NCBI GenBank assembly: GCA_937875885.1
Contig: CALEIO010000041.1
Span: forward strand, 1-11,323
Length of the DNA stretch: 11,323 nucleotides
Reading direction: 5' to 3'
From: an uncultured Clostridia bacterium
Lineage (GTDB): Bacteria > Bacillota > Clostridia > Oscillospirales > Acutalibacteraceae
Of the stretch, positions 2,246-10,341 are shown one piece after another. The notes below the pieces were generated by a model, which did not search any database, was not told where the DNA came from, and saw only the letters and a list, made by a program, of their open reading frames with translations. How positions within the stretch are numbered: position 1 is the first letter of the stretch; each line of letters opens with the position of its first letter. The position numbers were made by a program, and so were the translations under genes.

Positions 2246-3055
2246 TCAGTCGGACATACACTGTGACGCAGGACGATATTCGTACATAACGTGCAGAGTG
2301 TTGTCGGTAAGTCTGCACAGACCGCCGTTTTCATCGTACTCGTAGGTGATGGTTTCGGATACACCAGACTCATCGGTTTTTGTTTCGGATGTAAGTCTGC
2401 CGAATTTATCGTATTCAAGCTTCCAGGTACAGCTGAAAATCACTTCAGAGGAATCTCCCTCATGTTTGGTCTGTTTGATTACTTTTCCGTTTTCGTCATA
2501 TTCATATCCGATATAGGATGTTGTTTTGCCGTCAGCATCCAGAGAATTTCTCTTAACAAGATGATTCAGAGTATCGTACTCCATTGTTTCGTGTAGAGTG
2601 TCGGTTTTCATCTCTGTAATCTTGCCCGTTGTGTTGTACTTGAAGATTGCTGTTGAGGCAGAGTCTGTATCATAGTTAAGCACTCTTTTTGTAACAAGAC
2701 CCGCGGCGTTGTATTCCTCGAGAGTTTTCTCAAGGTCACTGCGGATAACAGCGGTATAGCTGCCGTCGGATTTGTTTTTGTAAGTATAGTTGCAGGTGAT
2801 ACTGTTGCCTTTTGATGTTACGGTTTTGATGACGGGACGATAGTCTTCGTTATATTTGTACACAGATTCTGCACCTGTTTCGGTGTCGGTCTCTTTGTAC
2901 AGGAGATATTCCTCATCGGGGAGAGGTGCAGCATCTGCTTCGCTCTGTGAGGGGTTTGTGGATTCTGTGTTGGTTGTTGTGTCTGCTGTGTTTTTACAAG
3001 CGCAAAGTGAACAGCAGAAAAGCATTGCAATTATAAGGGCAATGATGCGTTTCAT
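2246..3055 (-). CDS. YD-repeat lipoprotein of unknown function
   Basis: 269 residues. The N-terminus is a lipoprotein signal: charged MKR, a hydrophobic stretch, then lipobox LCAC with the modified cysteine at residue 20, predicting an anchor on the outer face of the membrane. Residues 21-46 are a Ser/Thr-rich spacer. The rest is built of about seven YD-like units of 20-29 residues with the pattern [EK]Y[DN]xxGx[LIV]xxxT, starting near residues 67, 114, 139, 159, 185, 214 and 239. YD/RHS repeats form beta-strand shells in larger secreted proteins; a short free-standing lipoprotein with them has no assigned role I can name. GGAGG sits 7 bases before the ATG. It follows the cytidylyltransferase gene by 41 bp and ends at a terminator, so it is probably the last gene of that transcript. 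Confidence 0.85.
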   Translation of the reverse strand: MKRIIALIIAMLFCCSLCACKNTADTTTNTESTNPSQSEADAAPLPDEEYLLYKETDTETGAESVYKYNEDYRPVIKTVTSKGNSITCNYTYKNKSDGSYTAVIRSDLEKTLEEYNAAGLVTKRVLNYDTDSASTAIFKYNTTGKITEMKTDTLHETMEYDTLNHLVKRNSLDADGKTTSYIGYEYDENGKVIKQTKHEGDSSEVIFSCTWKLEYDKFGRLTSETKTDESGVSETITYEYDENGGLCRLTDNTLHVMYEYRPASQCMSD

Positions 3056-3096: not shown

Positions 3097-3987
3097 TTAT
3101 ACGTCGTAAGTTTTGTCCAGAGCCTTGAGCTCGTTGTAGGTGTCAACCTCAATAATATCCTCAAAAGAGCACTCTCTTACGTGGATTTTGTATTCATCCT
3201 TGAAGTATTCAAGAGCAACCTGGTCCCAGTATCTTTCTTTTCCGCCGGGGGACTGGAACACCTGCTTGATGTGACCCACAAGACGGGCACCGTCTGCTTC
3301 GTCCCAATAAGAGATACCGAACATATGGTGACAGTTTGTGCCGCCTACAAGAAGCTTTTTGATAACACCGCTGTCGTTGGTTTCAAAGCACCAGTCATCG
3401 GTTTTGTCTACAGGTACACCAAGGTAGTTGGAGTGATACTGATATTTTGTGATAAGCTTAGGGTTGTAGAGCACAAGGTCACCCTCCAGCACGTAAGCAT
3501 TCTTGAGCAGATAGCTTGCGCATACAGCAGAAGAAATGTTGTTTGCTTCGTTGTACTGGGGATTTTCGATAAATTTGATTGTAGGATAATCGTAGAGAAG
3601 CTGATCAAACTGCTCTGCAAGGTAGCCTCTTACAATGTATATCTCGCTGATGCCTGCAGCCACAACCGCATCAAGCAAAGTGGTGATGATGCGCTTGCCG
3701 TTTACTCTGATGAGGGGCTTGGGTGTGTTGAGGGTTACGGGCACCATACGGGAGCCGAAGCCTGCAGCAATAAAGATTGCTCTTTTTACTCTGAAGGGCT
3801 CCAGTGCGTCGATGCCTGCAGCGGTGATTATACCATCTTGAATATAACCTTCGTTTGTAAGTTCAGCAAGACATTTGTTAACAGTACCCACAGACATTTT
3901 TGTTTCTGTGGCAATTGTTCGCTGGGGAATGGAAGCGTGCTTATCGGAAAGATAAACAAGCACATCAAATTGTTTTTTGGAAATCAT
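3097..3987 (-). CDS. Winged-HTH domain fused to LicC-like phosphocholine cytidylyltransferase
   Basis: 296 residues, probably cytosolic. Residues 1-65 resemble a MarR-type winged helix, with a recognition-helix-like segment near 31-45 (MSVGTVNKCLAELTN). Residues 69-296 are a nucleotidyltransferase. The NTP-binding signature AAGFGSRMVPVTLNTPKPL lies at 74-92, an EGD at 168-170 fits the catalytic acidic position, and EVDTYNELKALD near the end matches the C-terminus of LicC. LicC makes CDP-choline from CTP and phosphocholine for decoration of teichoic acids or lipids. The substrate here is inferred from similarity and could be another phospho-alcohol. No choline kinase is visible nearby. ATG at 3987 has an AAGGAAA site about 10 bases upstream. 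The position near a TagF-type transferase suggests supply of a CDP-activated headgroup. The HTH may be regulatory or only structural. Confidence 0.88.
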   Translation of the reverse strand: MISKKQFDVLVYLSDKHASIPQRTIATETKMSVGTVNKCLAELTNEGYIQDGIITAAGIDALEPFRVKRAIFIAAGFGSRMVPVTLNTPKPLIRVNGKRIITTLLDAVVAAGISEIYIVRGYLAEQFDQLLYDYPTIKFIENPQYNEANNISSAVCASYLLKNAYVLEGDLVLYNPKLITKYQYHSNYLGVPVDKTDDWCFETNDSGVIKKLLVGGTNCHHMFGISYWDEADGARLVGHIKQVFQSPGGKERYWDQVALEYFKDEYKIHVRECSFEDIIEVDTYNELKALDKTYDV

Positions 3988-4134: not shown

Positions 4135-4341
4135 TTACTTATCTTCGCCGAAAGAGCCTGTAATCTCTTCTTCAACCTCTTTGTTACGGTTTTCGTCGAT
4201 GCCCAGCTTTTCGCTGATTTTATGCTTTGCACGACGGAAGTAAACTGCCACTACTGCACCCAGTGTAACAGCAACGCCTGCAACTGCAGCAAAAACCATA
4301 GACATACTTGCAGCATCGATATAAGCTGTAATAATCTGCAT
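4135..4341 (-). CDS. Small single-span membrane protein of unknown function
   Basis: 68 residues. The N-terminus ITAYIDAASMSM resembles the YIDPGTGSM start of small membrane proteins that I recall near cell-envelope polymer genes in Firmicutes. A hydrophobic span follows (about residues 14-34, rich in Ala/Val), then the basic patch RRAKHK and an acidic tail, fitting an N-out, C-in topology. GGAGG lies 8 bases before the ATG, and the gene has its own consensus promoter and terminator, which argues that it is real. It lies 93 bp downstream of the YidC-TagF fusion gene. A helper or subunit role with its neighbours is plausible but unproven. Confidence 0.8.
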   Translation of the reverse strand: MQIITAYIDAASMSMVFAAVAGVAVTLGAVVAVYFRRAKHKISEKLGIDENRNKEVEEEITGSFGEDK

Positions 4342-4379: not shown

Positions 4380-4408
4380 ATTATATTACCCGTGTACAAA
4401 AAAGTCAA
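4380..4408 (-). promoter_or_regulatory. Sigma-A promoter of the small membrane protein gene
   Basis: On the minus strand TTGACT (4408-4403), exactly 17 bases, then TATAAT (4385-4380). Transcription would start near 4373, giving a leader of about 30 bases that contains the GGAGG site. The small gene can therefore be expressed independently of the upstream fusion gene, which shows no terminator of its own. Confidence 0.85.
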
Positions 4409-4434: not shown

Positions 4435-6546
4435 TTATTTTTTGTTCTGCTGTTTTTTAATAAGCTGTTCGTAAATGTACTTTGCTCCTGCAAGTCCGCT
4501 TTCGCCTACGTTGTAGATGTTGCGGTTGAGAGCCTCTGTAATCTGCTTTTCGTATTTATCGGGGTTTGTCAGCAGCTCCTCAACAGTTTCGGGGATAGTT
4601 GAGAGTTTGTCTGTGTCTACAGAGATACCAACCTGATCTTTCCAGGAGATTTCTGTGGGCACAAAGGGAATCTTTGTGTAGTTGGGATTAAGCACCTTCA
4701 TGGGAGTGTTGATAAACAGAGAAGGTTTCTTTGTAGCGTAAGAAAATTCGTAGGCAATGCCGGACCAGTCGGTAATAAGCAGGTCGGATTCCCAGATGGT
4801 GCGGTTGGAAGAGAAGTCCATCTCGATAACAAAATCGTCACCGTCGCATCCGTCGTACTTTTTGATGATGGCATCCATCTTTGCAGGGAAGCGCTTGATG
4901 AACTCGGGGTGAGGACGAAGAATAACCTTGTTGCCCTTGTGCAGAAGACCTTCCATAAGGTCATCGAGGCAATACTCAAGGATGTTGTCCTCCTGCCAGG
5001 AGGGAGCAAGCAGAATCTGCTTTTTGTCTTTTTGCACCTTCTCCATCTCATCGTACATTTTGCAGAGGTTGTCGATAAGACCAAAGCCTACGGGCACGAG
5101 CGTTTTTTCGGGAAGATTGTAGAGCTTTTCTGTAGCACGGATTTCATCCACCTGATGGGGGCCTACACAGAAAATTGTATCAAAGTGGTCATAAGCACCC
5201 TCACGTACACACATAGTGGTGCTGGTGGGTCCGTGGAAGGTATAGATGTATTCTACGTCTTTCTTTACATAGGAACGCTTGATGTAATATTTCTCCAGGT
5301 CGGGAGTAGTCATCAGCACAATTTCAGCATCCATCTTCATCATAAATGTGATGATCTTTTTGGGTCCTATGTAGTAAGGTTTAATGCGGGGCTCCTGCTC
5401 TGCTTTCTTGAAGATTGCATCGTCAGGATCGTTGGTTACATAGTGAATGGTGAGGGATGTGTTTTTGAGCAGAGCGTTAATTGTATTCTCAAAGTACTTG
5501 TAGAAACCGCTCTTTTCGGAGTAGATGACAAGCTTTTTGTTTACAATGGAGAAAAAGCGTTTGTAGTCGGCTCTTTCTCTTTTTGCGTTTTCGTCTTTGC
5601 TGAAGAGCTTTTTCTCGGGTTTATTGTCGAGAGCTTCAATAGCCGCAAGCTCTGCGCGACTTGCTTCCAGCTCGGGGTAGTCAACATACTTTTTGGGAGG
5701 AATGATTGCATTGAGAAGCAGAAGCTGCAGCACTGCAATAACATTACTTGCAACCCAATACAGAGCAATGCCTGTGGGGACAAAGAAACCAAGATAAAGG
5801 GAAAGTCCCACAGAGAAAATCATTGTGCCGTATTTGTTGCCTTTACCTTGCTCTGCCTGCAGTACGTTGATTTTGTTCTGAATAAAGCAGAGAAGCCAGG
5901 AAGAAAATCCTGCAATAATGGGAGCAAGAGCATAAACCCAATTTTGTGCAACTGTCTGGCTGGGAGTTGCAGAAAGGTCAAATCCGAAGAAATCCAGGTC
6001 AAACTTCTGTGCGTTGTTTATGGCGGCGGCACCGCTTTCGGTTTCCAGAAGAGTGCTGAAAGTTTCGGGGTATGTCTTGATTGCGTACATAGCGTTGATT
6101 TCAACAGAGTTTGCTTCTGTGTCAATCTCCACAACAGAGGATGCGGTCTGGTTTATGGAATTGATTACATCAGAGGGAGTGTTGAAGATGTAAGAAAAAG
6201 GATGATAGATAACCGCTACAACACCCAGAAGAAGCACAATCTGCAGAGCCAGAGGAAAAAGACTTGCAAAGGGGTTGTACTTCTGCTCTTTATACATACG
6301 TGTCTGCTCTTCGCCGATTCTCTCTGCATCGCCGTAGTATTTTGCTTTGAGTCGGTTGATGGCAGGCTGGATTTTTACGATTTTAATAGAATTCTTGTGT
6401 ACCCAGATTCCCACGGGAAGAATGATTATCTTTGTTACCAGAGTAAAAAGGATAATGGCCAGACCGTAGTCGCTGACCAGGGAGTGGCAGAATTGCATAA
6501 TATATCCCAGCGGGATTGCAAGCCAGGACATAAGTGTATCAAACAT
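4435..6546 (-). CDS. YidC/Oxa1-type insertase domain fused to CDP-glycerol glycerophosphotransferase (TagF-type) domain
   Basis: 703 residues in one uninterrupted frame. Residues 1-290 are YidC-like: membrane spans near 23-48, 96-118, 205-225, 239-258 and 260-280, a basic cytoplasmic loop at 49-95, and Lys39 in the first span where most YidC proteins have the groove arginine. The outer loop between spans 2 and 3 is long, about 85 residues. A charged linker (about 290-330) leads to a cytoplasmic glycerophosphotransferase-like domain. It carries FHGP (His438) and RPHP (His546), placed like the two catalytic histidines of TagF, and ITDWSG (591-596) like the family's TDYSS motif. TagF-type enzymes transfer glycerol phosphate from CDP-glycerol to build teichoic acid; the exact donor here is unknown. 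GGAGG sits 7 bases before the ATG. There is no lipobox. The insertase part may be a paralog serving as membrane anchor rather than the cell's main YidC. Confidence 0.92.
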   Translation of the reverse strand: MFDTLMSWLAIPLGYIMQFCHSLVSDYGLAIILFTLVTKIIILPVGIWVHKNSIKIVKIQPAINRLKAKYYGDAERIGEEQTRMYKEQKYNPFASLFPLALQIVLLLGVVAVIYHPFSYIFNTPSDVINSINQTASSVVEIDTEANSVEINAMYAIKTYPETFSTLLETESGAAAINNAQKFDLDFFGFDLSATPSQTVAQNWVYALAPIIAGFSSWLLCFIQNKINVLQAEQGKGNKYGTMIFSVGLSLYLGFFVPTGIALYWVASNVIAVLQLLLLNAIIPPKKYVDYPELEASRAELAAIEALDNKPEKKLFSKDENAKRERADYKRFFSIVNKKLVIYSEKSGFYKYFENTINALLKNTSLTIHYVTNDPDDAIFKKAEQEPRIKPYYIGPKKIITFMMKMDAEIVLMTTPDLEKYYIKRSYVKKDVEYIYTFHGPTSTTMCVREGAYDHFDTIFCVGPHQVDEIRATEKLYNLPEKTLVPVGFGLIDNLCKMYDEMEKVQKDKKQILLAPSWQEDNILEYCLDDLMEGLLHKGNKVILRPHPEFIKRFPAKMDAIIKKYDGCDGDDFVIEMDFSSNRTIWESDLLITDWSGIAYEFSYATKKPSLFINTPMKVLNPNYTKIPFVPTEISWKDQVGISVDTDKLSTIPETVEELLTNPDKYEKQITEALNRNIYNVGESGLAGAKYIYEQLIKKQQNKK

Positions 6547-6596: not shown

Positions 6597-6626
6597 ATTA
6601 TACGGCAAAGCTTTCGGCGTTGTCAA
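6597..6626 (-). promoter_or_regulatory. Sigma-A promoter of the YidC-TagF fusion gene
   Basis: On the minus strand a perfect TTGACA (6626-6621), 18 bases, then a perfect TATAAT (6602-6597). It lies about 50 bases before the ATG at 6546. It predicts strong constitutive expression and is divergent from the CapA-type gene. Confidence 0.88.
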
Positions 6627-8894: not shown

Positions 8895-9533
8895 TTATCT
8901 GTCAAACAGAGCCTCAACCTGCTCTACAGTAGTGTCGGCTGTGTGGGATGTTACGATAATGCACAGGTAGTCGCCCAGACTGCGGGCATAGTAGGACTGT
9001 GTTGCAGTATCGTCTGCGGTTGAGATTGTGAGGGATTTGCGGTAATATTCGTGGCCGCAGATGGTGACAGCTTCTGTGTCAGAGAGGGTGTAGGGGTTGT
9101 TTTCTGTGTCAATTGTCTGCAGAAAACTGTCCAGCACCTTGTTAACAAAATCCTTTGCGGAGGATGTGGAGGTAACAGCAGAGAGTTTTGGGTTTTCGAT
9201 GCCCATAAGCACAGCAATTCTGTCTTTTTCGGACTGTGCAATCATATCGTAAACAGTGGAGTTGTTTTTTAGCAACGTTTCAAAGTCTTCTGTTGCAAAA
9301 ACCTTGGGGTCAATGTTGCAGGCAGAAGCAAGCTCTTCGTCTGTAGCAAACACCCAGTTGTCGGAGGGTGCGCTGAAGGCAACGTCTGTGTATTCGCTGA
9401 CAAAGTCAAGACCATTTACAGAACCTCTTGCAGGAGGTGTGTCGGGCAGGTCTGTTTTTTCTTTGGTGCTTCCGCAGGCTGCGCACAAAAACAGAACAGC
9501 GGCACAAAGCATAAGGGATAAAACTTTTTTCAT
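8895..9533 (-). CDS. Lipoprotein of unknown function, paralog of the upstream lipoprotein
   Basis: 212 residues from ATG 9533. This start is chosen over the in-frame codon at 9602 because MKKVLSLMLC begins a clean signal peptide, GGAGG sits 5 bases before it, and a longer start would overlap the upstream gene. The lipobox-like CAAC puts the lipid-modified cysteine at residue 20. After a short linker, residues ~37-212 align along their length with residues ~98-264 of the neighbour: shared landmarks are a GS start, a W-x-FA-x-[ED][EH]EL segment, VYDM, an EN[PL] pair, SAKD[FY] and a YY near 163. Exported and membrane-tethered. The domain is not one I can name; a PsbP/DUF1795-like fold is only a suspicion. 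Separated from the upstream lipoprotein by 13 bp, so translation is probably coupled. Confidence 0.85.
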   Translation of the reverse strand: MKKVLSLMLCAAVLFLCAACGSTKEKTDLPDTPPARGSVNGLDFVSEYTDVAFSAPSDNWVFATDEELASACNIDPKVFATEDFETLLKNNSTVYDMIAQSEKDRIAVLMGIENPKLSAVTSTSSAKDFVNKVLDSFLQTIDTENNPYTLSDTEAVTICGHEYYRKSLTISTADDTATQSYYARSLGDYLCIIVTSHTADTTVEQVEALFDR

Positions 9534-9546
9534 AATTACCTCCGTG

Positions 9547-10341
9547 TTATTTGAACATAGAATCAACAGAAGAAATTTCTGCATTTTCGGGCAGAGTGAC
9601 AATGATGTTTGTCATATAATGATCGATTCTGCGCAGATAATAGATGCGGTTTAAGGTTGTGTCGGCATTTGATGACCTGAAAGCCAGTTTGTAATATTTA
9701 TTGCCGCCAAAGGTTACGGTGCCTTCTTCAAGTACTGTTGAATCGGGTGTTTCGCAGAATGCATTTTTGAGCATATCCGCATAGTCTTTTGCAGAAAGTT
9801 CGTCGCCTTTTGTAATTTGCAGATTTTCGTAGCAGATGCAGACAGAGGAGTTGTTTTCTTTGTAAGAGGCGTACATATCGTAAACTGCGGGATTTGCTTC
9901 GGCTGTTGCATTGAAATCTCCGAAGGAGTCTGCTTCAATGCCTGAATATGTCAGCAGCTCGTGTTCGTTGGCAAATGCCCACTTTGCAGGTTTTGTAAAG
10001 GTAAGGTTCAGGGTTTTGCTTGTGTATATGTTGCCTTTCGTTGAACCTTTTTTCAGAACGGAAACATCACTTTCGGGTGTGGTTTCGGTTTCTGCAGAGG
10101 GATCTGTTGCAGGTGCAGTTGCAGAGTCTGTTACAGATTCCGTCACGGACTGTGTTGCAGTTGCTGTTTCGGTTTCGGGTGCAACTTGTGTGGTTTCGTG
10201 GGAATGGTCATGAGCAGAAGCACTCTGCTGTGTTGTGTTATGGGTGTGGTCGTGCACATCTGTTGTGCTTTGTTTTGCGGCGCAACCTGCCAGAGAGCAC
10301 ACCATAAGAGATGCTATAGCAAGGGTAATCAGTTTTTTCAT
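9547..10341 (-). CDS. His-rich lipoprotein of unknown function
   Basis: 264 residues. The signal peptide ends in lipobox LAGC with the lipidated cysteine at residue 20. Residues 21-97 form a low-complexity linker containing two HxHxH clusters 14 residues apart, HDHTH (30-34) and HDHSH (44-48), then Ser/Thr/Glu-rich repeats of the type TESVTDS. A globular domain (about 98-264) is paralogous to the downstream lipoprotein. His clusters of this kind bind zinc or other transition metals in surface lipoproteins such as AdcA, so metal capture is possible, but the rest of the protein is not an ABC-type binding protein. GGAGG lies 7 bases before the ATG and a consensus promoter lies just upstream. It is the first gene of the three-gene operon. 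Confidence 0.87.
   Translation of the reverse strand: MKKLITLAIASLMVCSLAGCAAKQSTTDVHDHTHNTTQQSASAHDHSHETTQVAPETETATATQSVTESVTDSATAPATDPSAETETTPESDVSVLKKGSTKGNIYTSKTLNLTFTKPAKWAFANEHELLTYSGIEADSFGDFNATAEANPAVYDMYASYKENNSSVCICYENLQITKGDELSAKDYADMLKNAFCETPDSTVLEEGTVTFGGNKYYKLAFRSSNADTTLNRIYYLRRIDHYMTNIIVTLPENAEISSVDSMFK

Follow-up and report, generated by a model that had tools for sequence, protein, structure and literature searches.

The gene at positions 4435..6546 (minus strand) of the window, that is, of the whole 11,323-nucleotide stretch of clostridial DNA analysed here, encodes a genuine two-domain protein of 703 aa in a single frame, in which a YidC/Oxa1-like membrane domain is joined to a TagF-type transferase domain (YidC-TagF, or fusion I). 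What is new here is that this fusion represents one wiring of four modules, namely YidC, TagF, a one-span small protein that we call YIDP, and an LtaS/EptA-like sulfatase-fold enzyme. The case that these four modules are linked through interchangeable fusions is strong, and they very probably cooperate in decorating the surface with phospho(n)ate groups. We give an even chance to the more specific proposal that fusion I serves as the YidC-TagF component of a membrane machine built from the four modules, which places small CMP/CDP-activated phosphorus groups on the surface of the cell. Such a four-part machine is apparently so far undescribed.

The membrane domain of fusion I occupies residues 1-290 (5677..6546, minus strand) and the TagF-type domain (PF04464) residues about 330-700 (4447..5559, minus strand). 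Both Pfam models score over their curated cut-offs (108 bits vs 35 for PF02096, and 44.7 bits vs 22.1 for PF04464). Comparison of the predicted structure with solved folds matched the YidC fold over residues 1-290 and assigned a GT-B fold to the TagF half, with TagF and Staphylococcus aureus TarL among the closest solved folds. The first-pass annotation, which read two real domains in one frame, is thus borne out, and the model (pTM 0.58) does not fix the mutual placement of the domains. The candidate catalytic histidines that it had singled out, His438 (codon 5233..5235) and His546 (in the motif RPHP; codon 4909..4911), are invariant in an alignment of 66 fusion I rows (A2, a chosen subset of the 120 listed homologues from which L014 and L015 were excluded). 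The same holds for D593, W594 and S595 of the TDWSG motif (residues 592-596; 4759..4773) that it had noted as kept, and T592 is conserved in at least 90% of these rows; all these positions are on the minus strand. We take H438 and H546 to be the counterparts of the TagF catalytic histidines. In the YidC half, Lys39 (codon 6430..6432, minus strand) aligns with the functional arginine in the groove of E. coli YidC (4utq). Lysine occupies this position in 65 of the 66 rows, and the YidC half has its own invariant set of W48, N52, K86, Q223 and N224.

Beside the fusion gene is the gene for YIDP, a small protein of 68 aa (4135..4341, minus strand; profile E 2.4e-29) with one membrane span and a predicted N-out C-in orientation. 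The name is coined here from a Tyr-Ile-Asp-Pro start, which in the window copy reads Tyr-Ile-Asp-Ala. A profile search placed a YIDP gene on the same strand and less than 300 bp from fusion I in 30 of 34 fusion loci, in addition to the window, with no other match among the 5140 ORFs of 84 loci. Among the 34 loci, YIDP was not found at three where the fusion lies at the end of the contig or close to it (L010, L019, L032) nor at L011; it is also missing at L094. In an even sample of 200 evenly drawn genomes from the family of Lachnospiraceae bacterium A4 (G016), YIDP is present in seven of the eight fusion I genomes and missing in G565. The C-terminus of YidC and the N-terminus of LtaS both lie inside. 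Charge bias predicts an N-out C-in orientation for all five YIDP-bearing proteins tested, and therefore a TagF domain fused to YIDP would stay cytosolic. The first-pass annotation was silent on the YIDP gene and on the PntC/LicC-type cytidylyltransferase gene (3097..3987, minus strand), both of which lie downstream of the fusion in the window.

A second wiring of the modules came from an additional, third YidC, about 930 aa long, in four of the 34 fusion genomes (G002, G005, G025, G031), which is a YidC fused to a sulfatase-fold domain (YidC-sulfatase, or fusion II). Adjoining it is a protein of ~415 aa composed of an N-terminal YIDP-like span and a TagF-type body (YIDP-TagF). All three YidC-sulfatases tested match PF02096 over the cut-off, and two of them match PF00884, the third scoring 23 bits against a cut-off of 25; among the homologues listed, PF02096 is present in 120/120 and PF00884 in 107/120. 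The motif Y[IVLM]DP appears within the first 60 residues of all 120 listed YIDP-TagF homologues. At its threshold, the profile of the small YIDP protein misses the corresponding segments of YIDP-TagF; compared directly by hhalign, the two YIDP profiles align (probability 91, E 9e-7) over only 21 columns. This wiring was found at seven loci (L084-L090), and for at least 20 of the 120 listed YIDP-TagF rows the longest contig was judged by eye to be of the same size as that of a YidC-sulfatase row. There is also one case of a third wiring, in which YidC-TagF stands beside a 756-aa YIDP-sulfatase fusion (G431, locus L093).

In the even sample, matches to YidC-sulfatase and YIDP-TagF coincide in the same eight of 200 genomes (Fisher p 1.9e-14 over 199 genomes, the centre genome G016 being dropped in this and the other Fisher tests). 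The two genes are neighbours in seven of the eight and lie on separate contigs in G435. YIDP-TagF was counted only where the match included the start, which excluded four of the 12 matched genomes (G016, G516, G565 and G625, where the hit was confined to the TagF half of fusion I). Counted as YidC-sulfatases were G482, where the match covers the YidC part only of an 801-aa frame, and G539, whose 1087-aa frame is matched in two pieces; the YIDP-TagF frame of G466 measures 734 aa and may carry extra sequence. ORFs were called mechanically, without Prodigal, and gene starts are approximate.

The predicted model of a YidC-sulfatase has a pLDDT of 79.8, with a poor YidC half in which residues 143-204 fall below 50. 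Its best 50 fold matches include MCR-1, LtaP, phosphonate monoester hydrolases, EptA, sulfatases and LtaS. T524, D788 and H789 do not vary across 62 aligned rows (A1, a chosen subset of the 120 listed homologues), and the groove position is Asn in all 62. An Asp-His pair and further residues are likewise invariant in 20 full-length separate sulfatase partners, and some candidate partners score below the Pfam cut-off. These enzymes resemble LtaS/LtaP and EptA/MCR-1 in predicted fold and in their PF00884 matches, and differ from them in forming fusions with YidC or YIDP, or in lying next to a YidC-TagF gene. In the clade of the window (11 genomes) a sulfatase-fold homologue is present in ten genomes, adjoining the fusion only in G011 and located elsewhere in nine; none was found in G003, and none among the ten window proteins tested.

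The genomic neighbourhood connects both fusions to phosphonate synthesis. Locus L016 encodes, beside fusion I, a PEP mutase (TIGR02320, 411 bits), a phosphonopyruvate decarboxylase (TIGR03297, 442 bits) and a 2-aminoethylphosphonate (AEP) aminotransferase (TIGR03301, 470 bits), all over their cut-offs, together with a LicC/PntC-type nucleotidyltransferase. The PEP mutase cluster (c5) is represented in 11 of the 34 fusion loci, a set in which L016-L021 and L028-L030 are close kin; its members at L011 and L016 were confirmed by models. A PEP mutase is present in 20 of the 34 genomes. Fusion I lies inside AEP operons at L016, L095 and other loci, and the second wiring does so at L084 and L086 and not at L085 and L087-L090. 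At L023 and L025 the nucleotidyltransferase is joined to a CobD-like PLP domain (L023 tested). Within the even sample (n=199), seven genomes have fusion I, 21 have PEP mutase and four have both (p 0.0027); counting either fusion, the numbers are 14, 21 and seven (p 1.1e-4), so that 14 of the 21 PEP mutase genomes contain neither. The PEP mutase count was made at E 1e-60, and 20 of the 21 are over the curated cut-off. As a sign of AEP import, the phosphonate-binding protein PF12974 was uninformative, being over the cut-off in 10 of 14 control genomes.

These gene sets recall the Pnt/Lic pathways (PntC, LicC, LicD), with which they share a PntC/LicC-type cytidylyltransferase and, in relatives' operons, PEP mutase, decarboxylase and AEP aminotransferase. 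Near PntC genes, LicD-like phosphotransferases or glycosyltransferases have been described, whereas the candidate transferase here would be YidC-TagF or YIDP-TagF; the main text of that description nowhere mentions YidC (PMC6697681). Our system provides, in gut Clostridia, a concrete candidate for the steps that follow nucleotidyl activation when bacteria place phosphonates on their surface.

We propose the following order of events. The cytidylyltransferase encoded nearby would make an activated donor, CMP-2-aminoethylphosphonate in many relatives and elsewhere perhaps an ethanolamine- or hydroxyethyl- analogue. The cytosolic TagF-type domain, judging from its fold and conserved residues, would move the group onto a membrane-held acceptor, either a lipid or a lipid-linked glycan. 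The YidC fold, with the one-span YIDP beside it, may then present the loaded acceptor or carry it across the membrane, and the LtaS/EptA-like sulfatase-fold enzyme would use it outside. This sequence of loading, presenting or flipping, and use outside is proposed because TagF-type enzymes take CDP-activated donors at the cytosolic face, whereas the head groups used by LtaS/EptA enzymes of the sulfatase fold come from lipids on the outside. An intervening module able to let polar groups through would complete the route, and YidC scrambles lipids in vitro. Scrambling has been reported for E. coli YidC in vitro and for the tested Oxa1-family members in simulation, and a dedicated biosynthetic use is not described in the portion of that report drawn on here (PMC10491306).

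The first-pass annotation had offered two meanings for the fusion, an insertase-fold platform for a surface-polymer enzyme and a coupling of membrane-protein insertion to polymer synthesis. The former is favoured, since two distinct kinds of fusion tie the YidC fold to this machinery, and the latter gained no support. We rate at somewhat less than even the chance that the loaded acceptor is flipped or translocated by the YidC part, whose role would otherwise be just to dock the enzyme. The full version, in which the YidC-family protein is a dedicated flippase for lipids or lipid-linked glycans, with the cytosolic TagF-type domain loading a phosphonate (or phosphate) head group, the groove passing it across the membrane with the YIDP span as subunit, and the sulfatase-fold transferase using it outside, is held tentatively. 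If true, this would be a physiological use of the insertase lipid scrambling seen in vitro and a candidate for both the transferase and the export steps of bacterial surface phosphonate decoration. The same fold is wired to a cytosolic-type or an outer-type enzyme of apparently one pathway, which makes this a natural system for asking if insertase folds are capable of work on lipids.

The flip step is the least certain step of the scheme. A 16.5-kb AEP locus (L091) carries a standalone TagF-type enzyme with no YidC-profile match, so AEP loci do not always require the YidC part; this locus, together with the absence of the groove charge from YidC-sulfatases, is the reason for that uncertainty. 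The locus also favours a reading that keeps the same pathway and makes the YidC fold a mere anchor or dock, holding the TagF-type and sulfatase-fold enzymes near a lipid-bound substrate, as does the fact that in YIDP-TagF the YIDP span alone can anchor the TagF-type domain. However, an insertase fold of 300 residues would be a costly anchor, the basic groove residue is retained in nearly every fusion I row, and where YIDP anchors TagF the YidC fold nevertheless persists on the partner protein (8/8 genomes). We regard a pure anchoring role as a serious possibility that falls short of being probable.

The annotation of the C-terminal half as a polymerase is affected by the operon context. The transferase domain itself was confirmed; the word polymerase became doubtful, as many relatives lie in operons that make and activate AEP. 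AEP has no hydroxyl, hence it permits no chain extension, and so in the AEP-operon relatives the TagF half should be a group transferase rather than a polymerase. A teichoic-acid-type polymerase that transfers glycerol or ribitol phosphate from a CDP-polyol onto a membrane primer would agree with the PF04464 match, with TagF and TarL as close folds, and with the lack of PEP mutase in 8 of the 11 near relatives of the window. Moreover, at L011, which encodes a 69% relative of the window protein, the PEP mutase carries fused nucleotidyltransferase domains and is accompanied by a gene resembling iron alcohol dehydrogenases (below cut-off) and by a member of the decarboxylase cluster; this gene set suggests hydroxyethylphosphonate, which could be polymerised. 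The fusion does share PF04464, the GT-B fold and two invariant histidines with TagF and TarL (3l7m, 8va1). Unlike them, it is fused to YidC and linked to a cytidylyltransferase of the LicC/PntC type, many relatives also show a link to AEP biosynthesis, and it is probably a group transferase. The linked cytidylyltransferase belongs to the LicC/PntC family and is close to the enzymes of AEP operons, which together with the missing hydroxyl of AEP makes polymerase activity unlikely.

This cytidylyltransferase comprises 296 aa with a winged-helix part and a LicC/PntC-type domain (PF13412, PF12804, PF00483), and matches LicC (1jyk) with E 1e-29 and PntC (6pd1) with E 2.2e-12. Its catalytic domain is 60-62% identical to the AEP-operon enzymes of L084, L086 and L095, 65% identical to the enzyme of L009, whose genome has a PEP mutase elsewhere, and 29% identical to LicC. 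It has Glu at the position of LicC Asp105 and keeps Trp136, Tyr190 and Asp192. The second Asp position of LicC/PntC is Glu in L084, L086 and L095 and Asp in the window enzyme and in ten other AEP-operon enzymes, and because of these ten the residues do not settle AEP as the substrate. The PntC of Treponema denticola has Glu at both Asp positions, and another PntC retains the LicC aromatic residues (PMC6697681). The context marks F1 and F2/3 in our cytidylyltransferase table cross-match and were disregarded.

A PEP mutase was found in only three of the 11 genomes nearest to the window (G007, G009, G011), and its lack in the other eight counts against AEP as the donor in the window itself. Phosphocholine is disfavoured as a donor because no choline kinase over the cut-off was found in the same 11 genomes. 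Phosphoethanolamine, a close analogue, or AEP derived from the gut are possible donors; AEP occurs in rumen ciliates.

The fusion is not the housekeeping YidC/SpoIIIJ, since another YidC match is present in 32 of the 34 fusion genomes, which answers the check on a separate copy that the first-pass annotation had proposed. Its nearest highlighted relation among YidC/Oxa1 proteins is YidC2 of Bacillus halodurans (3wo7). In comparison with such insertases it has a C-terminal enzyme domain, invariant residues of its own, an additional YidC in nearly all of the fusion genomes, and neighbours other than rnpA or jag, these being in the window a CapA-like gene, YIDP and the cytidylyltransferase. A second insertase, coupling the insertion of a client such as YIDP or the sulfatase-fold enzyme to surface-polymer synthesis, would account for the YidC fold over residues 1-290 and for the adjacent gene of a one-span small protein. 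However, the other YidC, the fusion of YIDP elsewhere to TagF or sulfatase, which makes it look like a subunit and not a client, and the loss of the basic groove residue from all 62 YidC-sulfatase rows render such a role improbable.

Loss of the groove Arg was considered as a non-insertase mark of fusion I and rejected, as Lys also occupies this position in 11 of 28 ordinary YidCs (13 of 30 with L034 and L045 included, which represent a single truncated fusion). The idea holds only for YidC-sulfatase, with its invariant Asn. Since Lys is common in ordinary YidCs and Asn is universal in the aligned YidC-sulfatases, a charged groove is no general requirement. In a tree of 59 rows, made after removal of seven standalone YidC loci that were nearly identical and of the truncated L034/L045 fusion, the YidC domains of fusion I form one branch and those of fusion II another, each with an SH-aLRT of 100 (quick method). 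A joint clade of the two is not rejected (AU p 0.52), so that the tree, examined for the idea of two recruitments of YidC, fits either one or two origins.

Matches at E 1e-30 or better to the fusion were obtained for 7029 of 8000 scored candidates, and both Pfam domains are present in 115 of 120 homologues among the matches listed. A scan of GTDB species contigs yielded the 34 fusion loci, one of them in the genome of the strain Eubacterium uniforme ATCC 35992 (L024). Fusion I is infrequent across the phylum: of 398 genomes sampled from the G024 phylum, two contain a full-length match, namely G024 itself and G431, and eight of the 200 genomes of the even sample contain it. The same domain order had been expected in other Clostridia, and its recurrence rules out an assembly join; the combined presence of both domains in the listed homologues and of the fusion in a strain genome leaves a chance fusion or assembly artefact with a practically negligible probability.

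Where clostridial relatives are named, the annotation covers one half, as anticipated, with 'membrane protein insertase YidC' given for P0011, P0014, P0022 and P0056. Telling names in the homologue listings are only 'YidC' or 'CDP-glycerol glycerophosphotransferase'. No paper on a YidC-TagF fusion was found in the open-licence literature, judged by titles and abstract openings, just as the first-pass annotation knew of none.

Promoter-like sequences, identified by consensus match only, lie upstream of the fusion gene (TTGACA-18-TATAAT, 12/12; 6597..6626, minus strand) and of the YIDP gene (TTGACT-17-TATAAT; 4380..4408, minus strand). Such sites are not enriched in the region, with 5 found vs 7.1 expected. 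Terminator-like sites numbered 7 vs 3.0 expected, and the sole one on the minus strand (6890-6862) is located before the fusion gene.

The YidC-TagF system, centered on the fusion of a YidC/Oxa1-like domain to a TagF-type domain, can occur more than once in a genome. In one relative (genome G004), a second YidC-TagF copy (locus L039, 1512-5563, minus strand) is accompanied by its own gene for YIDP, the small one-span membrane protein, and by a sulfatase-family partner that scores just at the Pfam cut-off; a single genome can therefore carry two copies of the system. On one contig of another genome (G002:C90; loci L002 and L035/L087), YidC-TagF lies about 14 kb from a YidC-sulfatase protein with YIDP-TagF, so that both wirings of the same modules are present.

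In five related loci (L013, L014, L015, L026, and L033), the fusion and YIDP genes are followed by SerC-like and SerA-like genes, as named by eye from sequence; phosphoserine as a precursor is a possible explanation for these neighbors, as is adjacency alone. Near YidC-TagF, L023 (12681-14504; assigned by family search) as well as L025 (12183-13994), L096, and L097 (assigned by clustering or local profile) encode a protein in which a nucleotidyltransferase is joined to a CobD-like PLP domain. This protein may point to ethanolamine-type donors in those genomes that gave no hit for PEP mutase, an enzyme encoded in the 2-aminoethylphosphonate (AEP) operons of relatives.

An AEP locus (L091, 5694-13216) encodes a standalone TagF-type enzyme with 38% identity to the TagF-type domain of the window's fusion, as well as a single protein combining PEP-mutase-like and LicC-like (cytidylyltransferase) domains. 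A YidC profile search of its 16.5 kb gave no match.

In the window, a CapA-like protein gene (PGA_cap, PF09587; 6754-8004, plus strand) is transcribed divergently from the fusion. Its cluster (c6) contains 10 sequences, from the window and nine loci of its clade, that adjoin the fusion, and thus the CapA-like protein may be functionally tied to YidC-TagF.

The window also contains two small, overlapping lipoprotein-like genes of one cluster, c3 (8895-10341, minus strand), which had no match in a Pfam search; one has a His/Asp-rich stretch. Another lipoprotein-like gene (2246-3055, minus strand), with a Pfam match to RHS repeats (PF05593), is flanked by the cytidylyltransferase gene and hisS.
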